A stretch of DNA of 54,116 nucleotides, taken from positions 1 through 54,116 of the forward strand of contig JAFVAI010000113.1 of the NCBI GenBank assembly GCA_017480545.1. The letters run 5' to 3'. The position numbers and the translations under genes are program-made. Shown in pieces: positions 15,428-22,092 of this stretch (its first letter is position 1; each line of letters opens with the position of its first letter). Origin of the DNA: Schwartzia sp. (in: firmicutes). Its GTDB lineage: Bacteria; Bacillota; Negativicutes; Selenomonadales; Selenomonadaceae. A model generated the notes under the pieces. It saw nothing but the letters and a program-made list of their open reading frames with translations, searched no databases and was not told where the DNA came from.

Positions 15428-16333
15428 GAACCCGCCTGCGGCACGTCGGGCTTTCTCGTGGCGGCCAGCGACTATCTGCGGGAGACGCAAAAGCAGGACG
15501 TCTTCTTCGTTCATGAAAACAAAGCGCATTATATGAGCAGTATGTTCCACGGCTACGACATGGATCGCACCATGCTCCGCATCGGCGCCATGAACATGAT
15601 GACCCACGGCGTGGAGAATCCAAAGATTGAATATCGGGACAGCCTTTCCGACCAAAACCCGGACAAAGAGAAGTACAGCCTGATTCTCGCCAATCCGCCC
15701 TTCAAGGGGAGCCTCGACGCCGATATTGTCGCGGCGGATCTCTTGAAAGTCTGCAAGACGAAAAAGACGGAGCTGCTTTTCCTCGCGCTGTTCCTGCGGA
15801 TGCTGAAAGTCGGCGGGCGGTGCGCCTGCATCGTGCCCGATGGTGTGCTCTTCGGCTCGTCCAAAGCGCACAAGGACATACGAAAGGCCATCGTGGACAG
15901 CAACCGCCTCGAAGCGGTGATCTCCATGCCCTCCGGCGTATTCAAGCCCTACGCGGGCGTGTCCACCGCCGTCCTGATTTTCACCAAGACGGGCCACGGC
16001 GGCACGGACAAGGTTTGGTTCTACGACATGAAGGCCGACGGCTACACCCTCGACGACAAGCGGAGCGCGACGGAAGAAAACGACATTCCCGACATCCTCG
16101 CCCGCTTCCGCGCGTTGGACAAAGAAAAAGACCGCAAGCGCACCGAGCAGAGCTTCTTCGTGCCTGCGGAGGAGATACGGAAAAACGGGTATGACCTCTC
16201 CGTCAACAAGTACAAGGAGGTCGAATATCAGGCGGTGGAGTACCCGCCGACGAAGGAACTCATGGGCGAGATTGAGGAGTTGCAGAAGGAATTGGCGGGA
16301 GAATTGGCGAAGTTAAGGGAAATGATAGGATAA
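15416..16333 (+). pseudogene. hsdM: hsdM 3' fragment (type I DNA methyltransferase), split by prophage
   Basis: Type I modification subunit, an N6-adenine methyltransferase. The frame resumes at DTAIEPACGTSGFL, which is methylase motif I (AdoMet binding), and contains motif IV NPPF at 15692-15703. It runs to a normal C-terminus, 305 residues in all. The N-terminal helical half (normally about 150-200 residues) is missing and should lie on the far side of the prophage. GTG 15458 is a chance start inside motif I. As it stands the methylase cannot work; excision of the phage could restore it. Followed 19 nt later by the MNT-HEPN fusion. Confidence 0.88.
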
Positions 16334-16352
16334 AACGCAAGGGGGCTTTCGT

Positions 16353-17066
16353 GTGTATGGGCTGACGCCGGAGCAGTGCAAGCTGTTGATGGACACATTG
16401 GCGAGATATCGGGAATGCATTGTAGAAGCGAGGATTTTTGGCTCCCGCGCGCGGGGGGACTATACGAAAACCTCAGACATAGACTTGGCGGTTTCGCTCT
16501 GCCATCCTGTCTTGCCGGATTTGGCCGAAGCCTTGGACAACAGCCTTCTGCCCTATAAGGTAGATATTATCGACATGAACGCCGCAAAAAATGATAAGCT
16601 TACAGAAAATATCAGCCGCGATGGAAAGCTGCTGTTTCGCACAGAAAAAGGAGTAGTATTGATGACGGTCGAGCAAATTAAAATGAAACTGGAAGAATAT
16701 GAAAAAGCGGTCGCAAAACTCGAAGCTGCGCTGAAAAAAGATGCGGCGACGGACGACTTGTATTTGGACGGTGTAATCCAAAGGTTTGAATTTTGCTTTG
16801 AGTTGGCATGGAAGCTGATGAAAGCGTATCTCGCCTACGACGGCATTGAGGCGAACAGTCCGCGCGCGAGCATCCGGGAAGGATTCGTGGCGGGGCTTAT
16901 CACGGACGCGGAGGCATGGCTCGATATGTTGGAAAAGCGCAATCTGTCCAGCCACACTTACGACGAAAAGACAGCGTTGGATATATATGAACACATAAAA
17001 AACGACTACGCGCAAATGTTGACGGCTTTGCGCGAGGATATGAATGTACGACTGGCGAAGAAATGA
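16353..17066 (+). CDS. MNT nucleotidyltransferase fused to HI0074-type HEPN protein
   Basis: One 237-residue frame joins two proteins that are normally separate genes. Residues 1-100 are a minimal nucleotidyltransferase (GSRARGDY, then DIDLAV; Gly30-Ser31, Asp42, Asp44). Residues 104-237 are the HI0074/HepT-type substrate-binding HEPN partner, with an Rx4H motif RNLSSH (Arg196-His201). The start GTG 16353 has AAGGGGG at 16339-16345. An internal ATG at 16662 has its own AAAGGAG at 16647-16653, so the HEPN half may also be made alone. Such pairs act as toxin-antitoxin modules in which the MNT AMPylates the HEPN RNase (family knowledge). Confidence 0.82.
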   Translation: MYGLTPEQCKLLMDTLARYRECIVEARIFGSRARGDYTKTSDIDLAVSLCHPVLPDLAEALDNSLLPYKVDIIDMNAAKNDKLTENISRDGKLLFRTEKGVVLMTVEQIKMKLEEYEKAVAKLEAALKKDAATDDLYLDGVIQRFEFCFELAWKLMKAYLAYDGIEANSPRASIREGFVAGLITDAEAWLDMLEKRNLSSHTYDEKTALDIYEHIKNDYAQMLTALREDMNVRLAKK

Positions 17067-17087
17067 AAAGTTAAGGGAAATGATAGG

Positions 17088-18167
17088 ATGAAACCGCAAT
17101 ATACTTTCGATGAATTGTTCTCAGATGAAACAAGACGGGGGACGAAAATTCCTGCCTCGGCATACAAAACTAAGGGCAAATACCCTATCATTGACCAAGG
17201 GAAGGGAACTATTGCAGGATATACAGATGAAGCAGAGGGACTGTTCACGGATGTTCCCGCAATCATTTTCGGCGATCATACCCGTATTGTGAAGTATGTG
17301 GATGTGCCTTTTTTCATTGGCGCAGACGGCGTGAAAATTCTGTCCGTGAAGAAGGCGAAGGATAACCCAAAATATTTCTTTTATGCCTTAAAAAATGCAC
17401 GAATCCCCGATACAGGATATAATCGTCATTTCAAATGGCTCAAAGAACAAAAGTTTCTTCGTCCCGCTATTGATGAACAAAACAGCATTGTGGAGCGATT
17501 AGATGCAACGTTACACCTCATAAATAATACTGAGAGTCAACTTGTAAAACTTGACGCCCTCGTCAAATCACGGTTTATCGAGATGTTTGGGGATTTGCCT
17601 CTATCTTGTGCGATGAAAGATGTGTGCAAGATTATAACGGACGGAACACATCAACCGCCAAAATTTGTGCGTGAGGGAATCCCTTTTATTTTCGTGTCAA
17701 ATATCGTTCAAGATCGTTTGACATACGATGCCGAAAAATATATTGATGATGTCACTTATAGTGAACTTGTAAAGCGGACACCTATTGAAATAGGCGATGT
17801 TTTGCTTTCAACTGTCGGTTCATATGGCCATGCGGCTGTTGTAGAGAATGAACGCAAATTTTTATTTCAGCGTCATATAGCGTATTTGAAACCTGACCGC
17901 GAAAAAATCAATAGTCGATTTATGCACGCGCTACTGTTGAGTGATGGGGTTCAAAGACAGATTGAATCAAAAGTGAAAGGAATTGCTCAAAAGACGCTTA
18001 ATCTATCGGAAATCAAGTGTTTGCAAATCCCTTTGCCATCATTGCCCCATCAAAACCAATTCGCCGACTTCGTAACCCAAGCCGACAAATCGAAATTGGC
18101 AATTCGCAAGCTGCTGGAAAAGCAGGAGCTTTTGCGGGCGTCATTGATGCAGGAGTATTTCGGGTAG
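17088..18167 (+). CDS. hsdS: Type I restriction specificity subunit HsdS
   Basis: It gives DNA-sequence recognition to the type I complex. The 359-residue product has two target-recognition domains (about 1-130 and 180-320), each followed by a helical spacer; the central spacer contains LVKLDALVKSRFIEMFGD and the C-terminal one LEKQELLRASLMQEYFG. The TRDs are lower in G+C than flanking genes, as usual for exchanged specificity modules. ATG 17088 overlaps nothing and has a weak site. The last 52 nt are repeated at 18661-18712 beyond the DUF559 unit. Confidence 0.9.
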   Translation: MKPQYTFDELFSDETRRGTKIPASAYKTKGKYPIIDQGKGTIAGYTDEAEGLFTDVPAIIFGDHTRIVKYVDVPFFIGADGVKILSVKKAKDNPKYFFYALKNARIPDTGYNRHFKWLKEQKFLRPAIDEQNSIVERLDATLHLINNTESQLVKLDALVKSRFIEMFGDLPLSCAMKDVCKIITDGTHQPPKFVREGIPFIFVSNIVQDRLTYDAEKYIDDVTYSELVKRTPIEIGDVLLSTVGSYGHAAVVENERKFLFQRHIAYLKPDREKINSRFMHALLLSDGVQRQIESKVKGIAQKTLNLSEIKCLQIPLPSLPHQNQFADFVTQADKSKLAIRKLLEKQELLRASLMQEYFG

Positions 18168-18660
18168 AGATAAAAAAGTCCGCCCCCTTCGGGGGCGGGG
18201 GACCGCCGTAGGCGGTGGTGGGGGGCGCATAACATTGTCCATACCAAAGAATCCAAAACTCCTGCCGAGAGCAAAAACCATGCGTCGGAATATGACGAAA
18301 GAAGAATGTCATTTATGGTTTGATTTTTTGCGAGGTTACAAACCACGCTTCAAGCGTCAGCGAATCGTAGGCAATTATATTTTGGATTTTTTTTGCGAGC
18401 AAGCCAAGCTGGCTGTCGAGGCTGACGGCAACCAGCACTATGAAGAGAAGGGAAGGTTGTATGATGCGGAACGTGATTTGTATCTCCTGAATCAGGGCAT
18501 CATCGTTCTCAGATTTTCCAATCGTGATATTTGGGAGAGGTTTGAAGGGATAAAGATTCAAATTGACGAGGAAGTAAAGAAACGGTGGCATCCCCCCACC
18601 ACCGCTTCGCGGTTCCCCGCCCCCCAAGGGGCGGACAAAAATCGGTGCTTCGACGGCTCT
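18167..18660 (+). mobile_element. DUF559-nuclease unit with inverted double-hairpin ends
   Basis: Between the two 52-bp copies lies a unit with near-mirror ends. Left (18178-18225): hairpin CGCCCCC-TTC-GGGGGCG, then hairpin ACCGCC-GTA-GGCGGT, then GGTGGGGGG. Right (18592-18635): CCCCCCACC, hairpin ACCGC-TTC-GCGGT, then CCGCCCC-CCAA-GGGGCGG. The ends are inverted copies of each other. A single gene for a Vsr-like nuclease fills the interior. The arrangement suggests a small mobile or homing-type element; mobility itself is inference. Confidence 0.65.
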
Positions 18661-18693
18661 TGGAAAAGCAGGAGCTTTTGCGGGCGGCATTGA
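18235..18693 (+). CDS. DUF559 endonuclease-domain protein
   Basis: This is a Vsr/PD-(D/E)xK-like nuclease domain of the DUF559 family. The core (about residues 1-117) reads MSIPKNPKLLPRAKTMRRNM, then IVGNYILDFFC and LAVEADGNQHY, with Asp51, Glu62, Asp64 and His68 as likely metal-site residues. The start is TTG 18235, since the family usually begins with an IPxNPKL segment there. There is no stop before the right hairpin, so the last 35 residues (PPTTASRFPAPQGADK and on) are translated repeat and hsdS remnant. Biochemical role is not established. Confidence 0.75.
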   Translation: MSIPKNPKLLPRAKTMRRNMTKEECHLWFDFLRGYKPRFKRQRIVGNYILDFFCEQAKLAVEADGNQHYEEKGRLYDAERDLYLLNQGIIVLRFSNRDIWERFEGIKIQIDEEVKKRWHPPTTASRFPAPQGADKNRCFDGSWKSRSFCGRH

Positions 18694-18727
18694 TGCAGGA
18701 GTATTTCGGGTAAGGAAGGGAAACAAT

Positions 18728-19024
18728 ATGGTTTTTACTGCCGATGAAATTCGCACAAAATTGACGCCCATCATGGAAAAAAACGAGGTGCGGCGTGCGG
18801 TGCTGTTCGGCTCCTATAGCAAGGGAACGGCCACGGAATTAAGCGACGTCGATATCATGGTGGACAGCCCGCTGCGGGGACTGGATTTCTTTGGCTTTGT
18901 AGAGGATATTCGTGAAAGATTGGACGATAAAGAAGTGGACGTGATAGACGCGGTGGAAATTATCCCGAACTCGCCGATAGAAAAAGAGATCAACGCAAGC
19001 GGAGTGGAAATTTATGCAAGATAA
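18728..19024 (+). CDS. MntA-type minimal nucleotidyltransferase (antitoxin)
   Basis: The 98-residue product has the nucleotidyltransferase signature FGSYSKG with SDVDIMVD (Gly28-Ser29, Asp40, Asp42). Family members AMPylate and neutralise a partner HEPN toxin. A ribosome site GGAAGGG precedes ATG 18728. It overlaps the next gene by 11 nt, the usual arrangement for mntA-hepT. It lies inside the type I RM operon between the duplicated hsdS end and hsdR. Confidence 0.85.
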   Translation: MVFTADEIRTKLTPIMEKNEVRRAVLFGSYSKGTATELSDVDIMVDSPLRGLDFFGFVEDIRERLDDKEVDVIDAVEIIPNSPIEKEINASGVEIYAR

Positions 19025-19445
19025 GGATACGGTTATTGTCAACAAACTGCTCAATTATAGCGACGATATATCCAATTATATTGCAAATTTGGGCAAGACG
19101 GCATTTATAAATGACAGCAAGACAATGGCGGCTTGCGCGTTTTGCTTGGGGCAAATTGGCGAATTGACCAATGATATTTGCTATGCCGGGGAATTGCAAC
19201 AGGATATTCGAGTAACGGAAGCAAAGCCTCTGCGGGATGGCATGATGCTGGTTACATTTTCCACGGGCGAAAAAAGATTATTGGATACGAGGAAACTGGA
19301 AGGCGCGGCTTTCCGTCCGCTCACCGATGAGGAAATAGTCAATCGTCCTGTCTTGTTTCACGGGGTTATTACTTGGGACGACGGTAAAATTGACATCGCA
19401 CCGGAAACGGTTTACAGGGAAAGCTACGCATATTGCGAAGATTGA
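19014..19445 (+). CDS. Truncated HepT joined to a DUF2442 domain
   Basis: Residues 1-57 match the first two helices of HepT toxins (NYSDDISNYI, then AACAFCLGQIGELTN). Where HepT normally continues to its Rx4-6H RNase motif, the protein instead becomes a DUF2442-type domain (about 65-143: VTEAKPLRDGMMLVTFSTGE, then FRPLTDEE and ETVYRESY). The catalytic HEPN half is therefore absent. The chimera probably arose by deletion fusing two neighbouring genes. Toxicity is unlikely; binding to the upstream MNT protein might remain. Overlaps mntA by 11 nt. Confidence 0.72.
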   Translation: MQDKDTVIVNKLLNYSDDISNYIANLGKTAFINDSKTMAACAFCLGQIGELTNDICYAGELQQDIRVTEAKPLRDGMMLVTFSTGEKRLLDTRKLEGAAFRPLTDEEIVNRPVLFHGVITWDDGKIDIAPETVYRESYAYCED

Positions 19446-19471
19446 CGGATTTGCAATGGGGAGACTTTGCC

Positions 19472-22092
19472 ATGACCAACTTCGACCTCTTCACAAAAGA
19501 AAAGGACTTCGCCGCCTTTGCCGAGGCGGCGGTGGCGGCGGAGCGCATTTATCGGATCGACCCTGCGGCCTGCGCTTTGAATTGCCGCCGGGCGATGGAG
19601 TGCGCCGTGAAATGGATGTACTCGGTGGACGACGCGCTTTCCCTGCCTTATCAGGACAAGCTGGTCAGCCTGATGAATACCGAAGACTTCCGAAGCATCG
19701 TGGACGAGAATCTGCTCCGCCGGATGGATTTTATCCGCCTGACGGGAAACGCCGCCGCCCACGTCGGCAGGAAAATCACGAAGGAACAAGCCGCGCTGTG
19801 CTTGGAGAATCTCTATATCTTTCTCGACTTTGTGGCGTATTGCTACGGCAGCGACTATCAGGAGAAGCCCTTTGACGCTTCGCTCTTGGAGCAGGAGACG
19901 CCCGCGGCGACGCCCGCGGAAAAGTCCGAAGCGGAACTGAAACTCGAAGAACTGATGAAAGAAAACGCTGCCCTGCGGGAAGAGCTGACCGCGCGGCGGG
20001 AGGAACAGCGGCAGACCTATGTGACAAAGCCGCTGGAAATCTCCGAATACAAGACGCGAAAGCTTTATATCGACGCCATGCTGGAGGACGCCGGATGGGT
20101 GGAAGGAAGGAACTGGATCAACGAATACGAGTTGCCGGGGATGCCGAACAAGTCCGAAGCGGGCTTTGCCGATTATGTATTGATGGGCGACGACGGGCGC
20201 ATCTTAGCGGTCATCGAGGCGAAGCGCACCTGCGTGGACGTTTCCAAAGGACGGCAGCAGGCGAAGCTCTACGCGGACAGTATCGAGCAGAAGCAGGGAC
20301 GCCGTCCGGTGGTGTTCCTGACCGATGGCTTCGATACCCGCATCGTGGACAACCAATACCCGGAACGGAAAGTTGCCGCCATTTATTCCAAGCGCGACCT
20401 CGAAAAGCTGATGAATTTGCGGAAGATGCGCACCTCGCTCCAAAACGTCATGGTGGACCGGAAAATCGCGGGCCGGTACTACCAGACGGAAGCCGTCAAA
20501 GCCGTTTGCGAGAGCTTCGGCCAAAACCGCAGGAAAGCCCTGTTGGTCATGGCGACCGGCAGCGGCAAGACGCGGACGGTCATCGCGCTCTGCAAGGTGC
20601 TTCTGGCGCAGGGCTGGGCGAAGGACATTCTGTTTTTGGCGGACCGCAATTCTTTGGTGACACAGGCGAAGCGGAGCTTCGTCAATCTGTTGCCGGAGTT
20701 TTCCGTGACGAATCTTTGCGAGGAAAAGGCGGGCTATACGGCTCACGGCGTTTTTTCCACCTATCAGACGATGATGAACTGCATCGACGCGGTGCGCGAC
20801 GAGGAAGGGAAACTGTTTTCCTGCGGCCATTTCGACCTCGTGATTTGCGACGAGGCCCATCGGTCGATTTACAACAAGTACAAGGACATTTTCAATTATT
20901 TCGACGCGCCGCTGGTGGGGCTGACCGCGACGCCGAAGGACGACATCGACAAAAATACCTACGCCTTGTTCGAGCTGGAGAACGGCGTACCGACCTACGG
21001 CTACGATCTGGCGCAAGCGGTCAAGGACGGCTTCCTCGTGGATTTCCTTTCCGTGGAAACGACGCTGAAGTTTCTCCAACAGGGCATCGCCTACGACGAG
21101 CTTTCCGACGAGGAAAAGCGAATCTATGAGGACACCTTCGCGGACGAGCACGAGGAAGTCCCGGAGCGGATCGCCTCCTCCGCGCTGAACCAGTGGCTTT
21201 TTAATGAGGACACCATCCGGGAAGTCCTGCACGTCCTGATGGAGCACGGGCTGAAAATCGACTACGGCAACAAGCTCGGCAAGACGATTATTTTTGCCAA
21301 GAACCACCGCCACGCGGAAATGATCTTGAAGGTTTTCGGCAAAGAGTACCCGCATCTTGTCGGCTGGGCGAAGGTCATCGACAATTACACGAAATACGCG
21401 CAAAGCGCCATCGACGAATTTTCCGACCCGAAGAAGCTGCCGCAGATCGCGATTTCGGTGGATATGCTAGACACGGGCATCGACGTCCGGAAGTCTTGAA
21501 CCTCGTGTTCTTCAAGAAGGTCATGAGCAAGGCGAAATTCTGGCAGATGATCGGACGCGGCACACGGCTCTCTCCGGGATTGATGGACGGCGCGGACAAA
21601 ACGAAATTCTGCATTTTCGATTTCTGCGGGAATTTCGAGTTTTTCCGCATGAACAAGGGACGGGCGGCGGTGAATACGCTTCCGATTCAAGGGGCGATTT
21701 TCAGCTTGCAATTTGAGATTGCCTTCAAGTTGCAGGATTTGGCGTACCAAACGGAGCCGTTGCTTGCGTTCCGCAAGTCGCTGGTGGAGGAATTGACCGG
21801 GAAGGTCAAAGCGCTGAACCGAGAGAATTTCGCGGTGCGACAGCATCTGAAAGTCGTGGACACATACGCGGCGGCGGAAAATTATTTGTCGCTGACTTAC
21901 GAGGACACGCTGAACGTGCGGGAGGAACTGGCGCCGCTGATCGAACCGGAAAACGACGAGGCGTCGGCCCTTCGCTTTGACGCGCTGATGTACGGCATTG
22001 AGCTGGCGTATCTCTTTGCGGATGTGGCCGTTTGGGCGGGGATCAGGAAAGCCATCGAGAAAGTCAACGCCAACGCGGTGAAAGCGGCGTGA
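19472..22092 (+). pseudogene. hsdR: hsdR, type I restriction subunit, frameshifted
   Basis: This is the ATP-dependent translocase/nuclease subunit of the type I enzyme. ATG 19472 has GGGGAGA just upstream. An N-terminal DUF4145-like region is followed by the HsdR nuclease domain (VIEAKRT near residue 253), Walker A GSGKT (about 363) and the DEAH box (about 460). At 21485-21499 the frame reads GIDVRKS-stop, while family sequence expects GIDVPEVLNLV; restoring one C at 21487-21488 joins it to the downstream frame (FWQMIGRGTR, 21496-22092). The gene is thus broken by a one-base deletion, unless this is a sequencing error. Confidence 0.88.

Follow-up and report, generated by a model that had tools for sequence, protein, structure and literature searches.

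Introduction

Intrastrand triplex motifs, described as TMECO and earlier as PIT elements, are dispersed, intergenic repeats built from a C-arm, a loop, a G-arm, a linker and a G-rich third strand of the purine motif (Holder et al. 2015, PMC4666352). TMECO, with a 3-nt linker, is present in 23 copies in E. coli MG1655; its triplex was demonstrated in vitro by CD and NMR, with no stable triplex in vivo (PMC4666352). The same authors describe triplex repeats as unstable sites, report no mobility gene around the TMECO sites, and cite an earlier test that found neither promoter nor terminator activity for such repeats (PMC4666352). Their ITxF search admitted loops of 1-6 nt, and the words 'DUF559' and 'nuclease' do not occur in the main text of that paper (PMC4666352).

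In REP/REPIN-RAYT systems, a dedicated nuclease gene is flanked by short palindromic repeats that are also dispersed as gene-less, often inverted copies. The locus described here has the same arrangement, but RAYT is a tyrosine (HUH) transposase, whereas the nuclease at this locus, DUF559, is PD-(D/E)XK-like. The DUF559 protein YcjD of E. coli was assigned to the PD-(D/E)XK group, and its profile picked up Vsr (PMC1189080). VsrA of Caulobacter, also a DUF559 protein, has been connected with predicted mismatch repair; it is responsible for an SOS response in cells without a cytosine methylase (PMC12907096), which is consistent with DNA cutting in vivo. Among the papers listed from the open-access literature, preprints aside, none joined DUF559 or ycjD to palindromic, hairpin or triplex repeats in its title or the start of its abstract.

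Results

Layout of the DUF559 unit

The window, a stretch of 54,116 nucleotides from Schwartzia sp., carries at 18178-18640 what is likely a mobile element with one DUF559 gene between two inverted double-hairpin ends. This unit of ~460 bp lies between hsdS (17088-18167) and a nucleotidyltransferase gene that starts at 18728, and its parts and neighbours are as follows.

17088 to 18167, plus strand: hsdS, type I specificity subunit (Pfam Methylase_S, E 1.3e-22); the unit sits after its stop codon
18093 to 18166, plus strand: hsdS 3' end, left copy by sequence comparison, with a 52-nt core at 18115-18166
18178 to 18227, plus strand: left end, with hairpin A (18180-18198), hairpin B (18202-18216) and the mirror tail GGTGGGGG (18217-18224) toward the gene
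18235 to 18693, plus strand: DUF559 nuclease gene, with a TTG start or an inner ATG and the motif DFFCEQAKLAVEADGNQH; its frame crosses the right end
18593 to 18640, minus strand: right end, with hairpin A, hairpin B and mirror tail, the tail toward the gene
18639 to 18712, plus strand: hsdS 3'-end-like right copy, whose first ~14-20 nt also follow right ends elsewhere in congeners

Each end consists of a hairpin A with a C-arm and a G-arm, a hairpin B and a G-rich tail, and the tails point to the gene. The original prediction had proposed inverted double-hairpin ends around a single nuclease gene with no transposase, and this description held. The 23-nt arms of the two ends are 91% complementary, and both ends are predicted to fold as two hairpins (DNA energies of -17.2 and -14.7 kcal/mol, with 9/200 and 0/200 shuffles as good). 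The gene is a DUF559 gene by Pfam (E 1e-26; 93.4 bits for PF04480 against a curated cut-off of 20.6), and the open reading frames of the unit include no other of transposase size. The proposed read-through of the right end was also found, since the frame traverses this end and stops at 18693, within the right hsdS copy. An exact pattern of the left end matched once in the window, at the left end itself, with 0 matches expected. A known RNA family could be discounted, the sole match in 17900-18900 having an E of 0.86 and, at 15 bits, falling below the gathering score of 37.

The unit lies in a type I restriction operon (15458-21499) encoding an N6-methylase, HsdS and a ResIII/HsdR-like protein. 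Two nucleotidyltransferase genes are interleaved with the operon subunits, at 16353-17066 (substrate-binding domain) and 18728-19024 (Polbeta).

A model of the enzyme domain (17 sequences, mean pLDDT 86.4) resembles three known structures, those of NGO0050 of N. gonorrhoeae (3hrl), I-Bth0305I (3r3p; sequence E 8e-5, TM-score 0.72) and Vsr (1cw0; TM-score 0.67). The nuclease motif D-F-x-C...E-x-D-G..H was recovered by regular expression in 151/155 DUF559 domains, that of the window gene included. A DUF559 gene of N. gonorrhoeae, which is perhaps NGO0050 itself, has triplex-type repeats downstream.

Inverted repeats accompany DUF559 genes

The association of repeat and nuclease was measured with a general detector based on the mirror tail, which is the source of the main pairing figures. 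The detectors were designed on 75 DUF559 genes of the window's own family; named, plasmid-collection and phylum loci were added later. Among 80 named DUF559 loci, a repeat lay within 450 bp upstream in 70/79, downstream in 69/76 and on both sides in 60/75, in a set biased to the query's close kin because it comprises the best 80 of 548 confirmed relatives, at least 8 of them also in the own-family set. Named records from Pectinatus brassicae, Anaerovibrio lipolyticus and Selenomonas montiformis are almost identical in sequence to own-family members, which suggests that the window derives from a Selenomonas relative. The corresponding figures for the 75 own-family genes were 57/74, 52/72 and 38/71, and a first detector had given 51/74 upstream and 44/72 downstream. 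At control loci of Vsr genes, all 19 of them Vsr by Pfam (80.7 to 103.5 bits, cut-off 27), neither detector placed a repeat on either side (0/19 each); the general detector found 4 repeats in 55 kb of these loci, every one more than 1 kb from the gene. Weaker, partial DUF559 matches (open frames of 120-1694 residues) likewise had none (0/7). Repeat density at the named loci was 6.97 per kb within 150 bp of the gene and 0.10-0.14 beyond 450 bp, and over the locus sets it fell from 5.5-7.0 per kb beside DUF559 to 0.1-0.6 beyond 450 bp.

The nearest repeat was oriented toward the gene at most named loci (67:4 upstream, 69:4 downstream), and this preference was weaker in the own family (42:15 and 43:12). 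A search of 100 relatives gave 39 full-length DUF559 matches, and inverted similarity between the flanks reached a score of 25 in 19/38 DUF559 loci vs 0/19 Vsr loci. Moreover, the lineage of the nuclease tracks the sequence of the repeat, also under permutation within genomes (p 0.0018).

Among 13 loci chosen for diversity from 43 matches in a plasmid collection, 10 had detector repeats within 200 bp of the gene, two cyanobacterial loci had shorter repeat versions recognised by eye only, and the detector found no repeat at a Thermoactinomyces locus. Repeats were present somewhere in the locus in 6/7 phylum loci scanned. Outside Bacillota the repeats face the gene in Azospirillum, Sinorhizobium and Photobacterium, face away in both Deinococcus loci, Klebsiella and Neisseria (nearest intact repeat), and are ambiguous in Sphingomonas, Synechocystis and a truncated Lelliottia gene. 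Because of this mixture, inward-facing ends are perhaps no general rule.

Triplex-type repeats flank DUF559 with tails outward in the two Deinococcus loci (L251, L258). Tandem arrays of repeat pairs follow DUF559 in Photobacterium (L255) and N. gonorrhoeae (L250), with periods of ~147 and ~281 bp.

The tail mirrors the G-rich arm of hairpin A

The G-rich tail mirrors the G-rich arm of hairpin A in the letters of a purine-motif triplex, at 8/8 positions in both window ends. Over a set of 125 distinct repeats, reading the tail outward from hairpin B gives the G-arm in reverse. Opposite G in the arm the tail has G 637, A 43, T 23 and C 21 times; opposite A it has A 143, T 54, C 8 and G 7 times; and opposite C it has T 13, C 10, A 4 and G 1 times. 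The G-G and A-A counts are inflated because the alignment was picked for identity, which does not inflate the excess of T over A. The tail letters observed here are those of a third strand in the antiparallel purine motif.

A test blind to the tail gave the same picture. Of 212 distinct nearest hairpins, 42.9% had a perfect mirror-code tail within 40 nt, compared with 3.8% when the arm was left unreversed (direct), 3.1% with shuffled letters, and 9.3% with tails dealt from other loci (maximum 14.6% among 200 deals). As predicted from the sequence, the geometry is that of a fold-back third strand, in which the tail would start at the end of the G-arm and hairpin B would serve as the turn. The linkers of the window ends, of 18 and 16 nt, fold as hairpin B; they are a variant, the linker being mostly 3 nt at DUF559 loci outside Bacillota. 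The window ends follow the purine-motif code of the triplex motif but exceed its 1-6-nt loops, and ends linked by hairpin B fall outside the published search because of that restriction (PMC4666352). An in-vitro triplex is that of TMECO (PMC4666352), whereas the window ends are known from their predicted fold. The mirror tail and the link to known triplex repeats are points beyond the original prediction.

We also considered a role of the ends as transcription terminators, which would insulate a short foreign gene, with folding at the RNA level and ordinary transfer of the gene. A T-run often follows hairpin A on one strand, as it does on the minus strand of the window left end and in the Clostridia-family right end GGGAGCCTTTTTT. 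On the gene's strand, the hairpin of the window right end is not followed by a T-run; hairpin B and the mirror tail would be superfluous in a terminator, and gene-less inverted pairs and empty sites (described below) would be left unexplained. Together with the lack of promoter or terminator activity in the earlier test cited by Holder et al. (PMC4666352), this makes a terminator role quite improbable.

TMECO and ycjD in E. coli

In E. coli, TMECO copy 9 (1351204-1351239, NC_000913.3) occupies the interval from fabI to ycjD. It is ~170 bp away from the end of ycjD, a gene that both its annotation and Pfam assign to DUF559. The rough chance that one of 18 sites adjoins a given gene is 1%, taking 3600 intergenic spaces. 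Strain 118UI has a complete repeat overlapping the ycjD 3' end, an arrangement also seen between the window right end and its gene, and a second repeat lies further down. No repeat was found at two E. coli loci without ycjD (three stretches). By our own reading of Table 1 of Holder et al., the tails point inward in 4/5 E. coli inverted pairs (PMC4666352). E. coli chromosomes with ycjD had a median of 16 matching places (n=25) and those without it 2 (n=14), a comparison of 39 of 40 entries sampled from 5365 records (one plasmid dropped) that is confounded by phylogroup. Since gene and repeat adjoin in distant bacteria, E. coli included, DUF559 is the likely engine of the repeat family.

The ycjD locus was set aside as an empty-site test, as the ycjD-less genomes examined have an efflux operon at this position (PMC12817139); with ycjD replaced in this way, the locus is not a simple insertion. 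On the start side of ycjD in E. coli K-12 (L240), the detector found no triplex repeat. A long palindrome, TCACCTCATTCTGACAAGA..., extends across the ycjD start at ~2761-2802 of the same locus.

Gene-less and deleted copies

The original prediction proposed to check whether the end sequences recur with and without DUF559 genes, and they do. In the window's own genome (G000, 115 contigs), similar ends form a gene-less inverted pair on contig C33. On contig C95 (L009 1860-2345), an array of partial hsdS 3' ends parted by triplex-type hairpins follows another hsdS, again without DUF559; in congeners the ends occur with the gene. The two other full-length DUF559 genes of G000 have other double-hairpin families, with repeats on both sides at C109 and on one side at C115, where the other side is lost to the contig end. 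An internally deleted copy in G006 (C18, L124) keeps both ends. Such copies, and a gene-less inward pair in G117, resemble MITEs; unlike MITEs, the full copy has no transposase gene, and there is no short fixed target duplication. The same two features, no DDE transposase gene and no short fixed target duplication, set the unit apart from insertion sequences of that type.

In Pectinatus brassicae, two DUF559 genes with identical domains lie 596 bp apart (L149, G128:C27), and the surrounding DNA has 92 matches in the genome.

Occupied and empty sites

One site could be compared among 14 congeners in the genus of G119. DUF559 and repeats are present there in four (G119, G123, G045 and G122), a repeat pair without a gene in one, and the locus is free of repeats in the other nine. 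In G119 the insertion follows a stop codon directly; its ~950 bp include a repeat array next to the gene. The gene-less pair of G117 (L277 1505-1661, contig C4) faces inward at the position of the occupied site, as would be expected of a deletion derivative or a first settler. Junctions were read in 6/9 empty genomes: the aligned flanks are 2 bp apart in G125 and are separated by 52-158 bp of other sequence in G121, G124, G116, G120 and G126. G121 and G124, empty at this site, carry DUF559 elsewhere in the genome. In the genus of Pectinatus, the element of the G128 site is missing from G015 and G043, as judged from match coordinates alone. Close relatives with and without the element at one site, as expected of a mobile element, were therefore found at a locus other than that of the window.

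In a Clostridia family, 12 copies of 441-443 bp that are 89-98% identical have 8 distinct left flanks, grouped by eye after one locus (L219) was dropped because its right motif was not found. The left edge of these copies is sharp (AAAAG|CCTCCC) and the right edge ragged, with 46 to ~130 shared bp past the right repeat. Eight unrelated left flanks of near-identical copies are not what allele homing, one option of the original prediction, would give. DUF559 shares fold and sequence with the homing endonuclease I-Bth0305I and with Vsr, but unlike homing elements these units show no intron or intein, end in folded repeats and have insertion sites that are not one allele. Transfer RNA genes were discarded as targets of the Clostridia family, with ARAGORN tRNAs in just 3/24 loci.

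Outer direct repeats were detected at 18/93 elements (15 distinct), compared with 1/93 in inverted orientation and 1/558 among mismatched pairs; the 18 include 3 loci counted twice and 2 with an unmasked hairpin inside the repeat. In two distinct loci (66 and 158 bp) the direct repeats touch both ends; elsewhere they are up to 155 bp off, and none was seen at the G119 site. Variable length and distance suggest repair instead of a fixed staggered cut.

These sites also bear on whether DUF559 could be a host genome-maintenance nuclease, acting in Vsr-like repair or non-B DNA surveillance and protecting the cell from the repeats. Its fold is near that of Vsr, Caulobacter VsrA is linked to predicted mismatch repair and an SOS response (PMC12907096), and triplex repeat sites are unstable (PMC4666352). 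A housekeeping gene would hardly be as patchy as DUF559, found in 48/189 family genomes at E 1e-20, nor would it be expected to sit between inverted repeats of preferred orientation or to occupy a site in some congeners and be missing from it in others. We regard a maintenance role as improbable.

The hsdS copies around the unit

The presence of 52-bp hsdS copies on both sides of the unit, as first noted, was corroborated: they agree at 51/52 nt, and an extended alignment (18093-18166 vs 18639-18712) agrees at 64/74. Their reading as a simple duplication made by the present insertion did not survive comparison with other genomes. The right copy is as close to the hsdS of G006 (65/74) as to that of its own genome (64/74). 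Its opening letters also stand behind right ends in G001, G004, G006, G009 and G010, five congeners with no hsdS gene in the displayed stretch at those places. A stretch near ACAAARATCGGTGC also trails right ends at unrelated sites. We therefore rejected a plain or fresh target-site duplication. In G006 and G001, a right end, an hsdS fragment and a left end are lodged inside pieces of a DUF559 gene. Because the hsdS stretch follows right ends elsewhere and because of these permuted copies, the hsdS piece probably travelled along with the element. The loci concerned (L123 1201-1921, G006:C4; L128 1361-2101, G001:C37) have a circularly permuted unit, as expected of a circle or a tandem array.

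The original prediction of a minimal element, with DUF559 its only gene and folded DNA at its ends, is thus supported, except for the origin of the 52-bp copies. It had also proposed to look for empty sites that lack both the unit and one copy. Empty sites do exist at the other locus described above; at the hsdS site itself, congener G007 has one hsdS 3' end with neither the unit nor a second copy. Different genes follow its hsdS, so that it was not accepted as a clean empty site and is only suggestive.

Copy number and the nuclease

In the genus of G119, the repeat pattern was counted 24, 6, 24, 16, 21, 27 and 57 times in genomes with DUF559 and 1, 0, 1, 0, 1, 0 and 9 times in those without, and the reversed-pattern control gave 0 in all 14 genomes. 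Counts by DNA match separate the two groups fully (7 vs 7, exact p 0.00058, with no phylogenetic correction); such tests are phylogenetically non-independent because related genomes share both gene and repeats. The genome with 9 repeats, G126, has no full-length DUF559. The richest of the genus, G124 (57 repeats), has a TAG stop within its DUF559 gene, so that copy number can outlast the enzyme. Copies of the window family occur in 12/189 genomes, including all 4 with a recognised window-type nuclease (G000, G001, G006 and G041). Window-type repeats without a cognate nuclease number 51 in G012, which has another DUF559 type only, 8 in G217, 8 in G035 and 4 in G219, and four further genomes have one copy each and no cognate nuclease.

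Gene-less repeats are more numerous than DUF559 genes and persist without DUF559. Together with the RAYT-REP precedent (PMC3733652), this would suit a spread of the repeats by other machinery, such as a RAYT-type HUH transposase or replication slippage, with DUF559 as mere cargo, perhaps one of several kinds. Cargo would hardly be paired with the repeats in several phyla, nor would its lineage be expected to follow the repeat sequence within genomes. RAYT in particular was dismissed as the mobilizer, since the repeat-rich G124, G121 and G122 (57, 16 and 21 repeats) have no Y1_Tnp match and G017 has 8 matches and 1 repeat. Spread by other machinery is on this evidence rather unlikely. The repeats themselves also differ from REPs. 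GTAG REPs carry a GTAG head, whereas the window ends have no unpaired GTAG head and have a mirror tail. CGTC-tagged REPs were excluded as the same repeat, since their description gives loops of 4-5 nt and a short CCA tail, without a third strand (PMC3733652).

Discussion

The explanation that we favour, and hold to be reasonably probable, is that a DUF559 gene, related to Vsr and I-Bth0305I, forms a mobile element with inward-facing hairpin-triplex repeats, and that the nuclease acts on the folded ends and moves both the element and its gene-less copies. The genomes display the pairing of gene and repeat, the inward orientation in Bacillota, the mirror code, gene-less pairs, deleted copies, an occupied and empty site, varied flanks and, in one genus, the difference in copy number; from these we infer that DUF559 acts on folded ends.

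When an end becomes single-stranded, for example at a replication fork, hairpin A would form and take up the tail as its third strand, the chain turning through hairpin B or a 3-nt linker. DUF559 would then recognise and bind a pair of ends and nick or cut the structure, and host repair or replication would insert a copy elsewhere, in the window just after a gene's stop codon. Insertion may sometimes duplicate tens of bp of flank or take along DNA beyond the right end, here the hsdS piece. The ragged right edge and the long, variable duplications favour such a repair or replication route.

We know of no class of mobile element that has either this type of enzyme or this type of end, and on that basis the system would be new in kind. 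If 'repeat plus dedicated nuclease' is taken as the kind, it may instead be a variant of the REP-RAYT kind.

The role of DUF559 proteins such as YcjD of E. coli, which have a nuclease fold, is not settled. At close to even chances, we suggest that a class of bacterial mobile elements with intrastrand-triplex ends has standalone DUF559 genes as its autonomous core; the nuclease would read the fold and be the missing mobilizer of triplex repeats in hundreds of bacterial genomes, including E. coli. The system is small, consisting of one domain of ~110 residues and one repeat of ~45 nt. If recognition of the fold proves true, this would be to our knowledge the first case of a DNA triplex serving as the substrate mark of a mobile element. 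The adjacency of gene and repeat across phyla unites two orphans, DUF559 and the triplex repeats, as one testable system.
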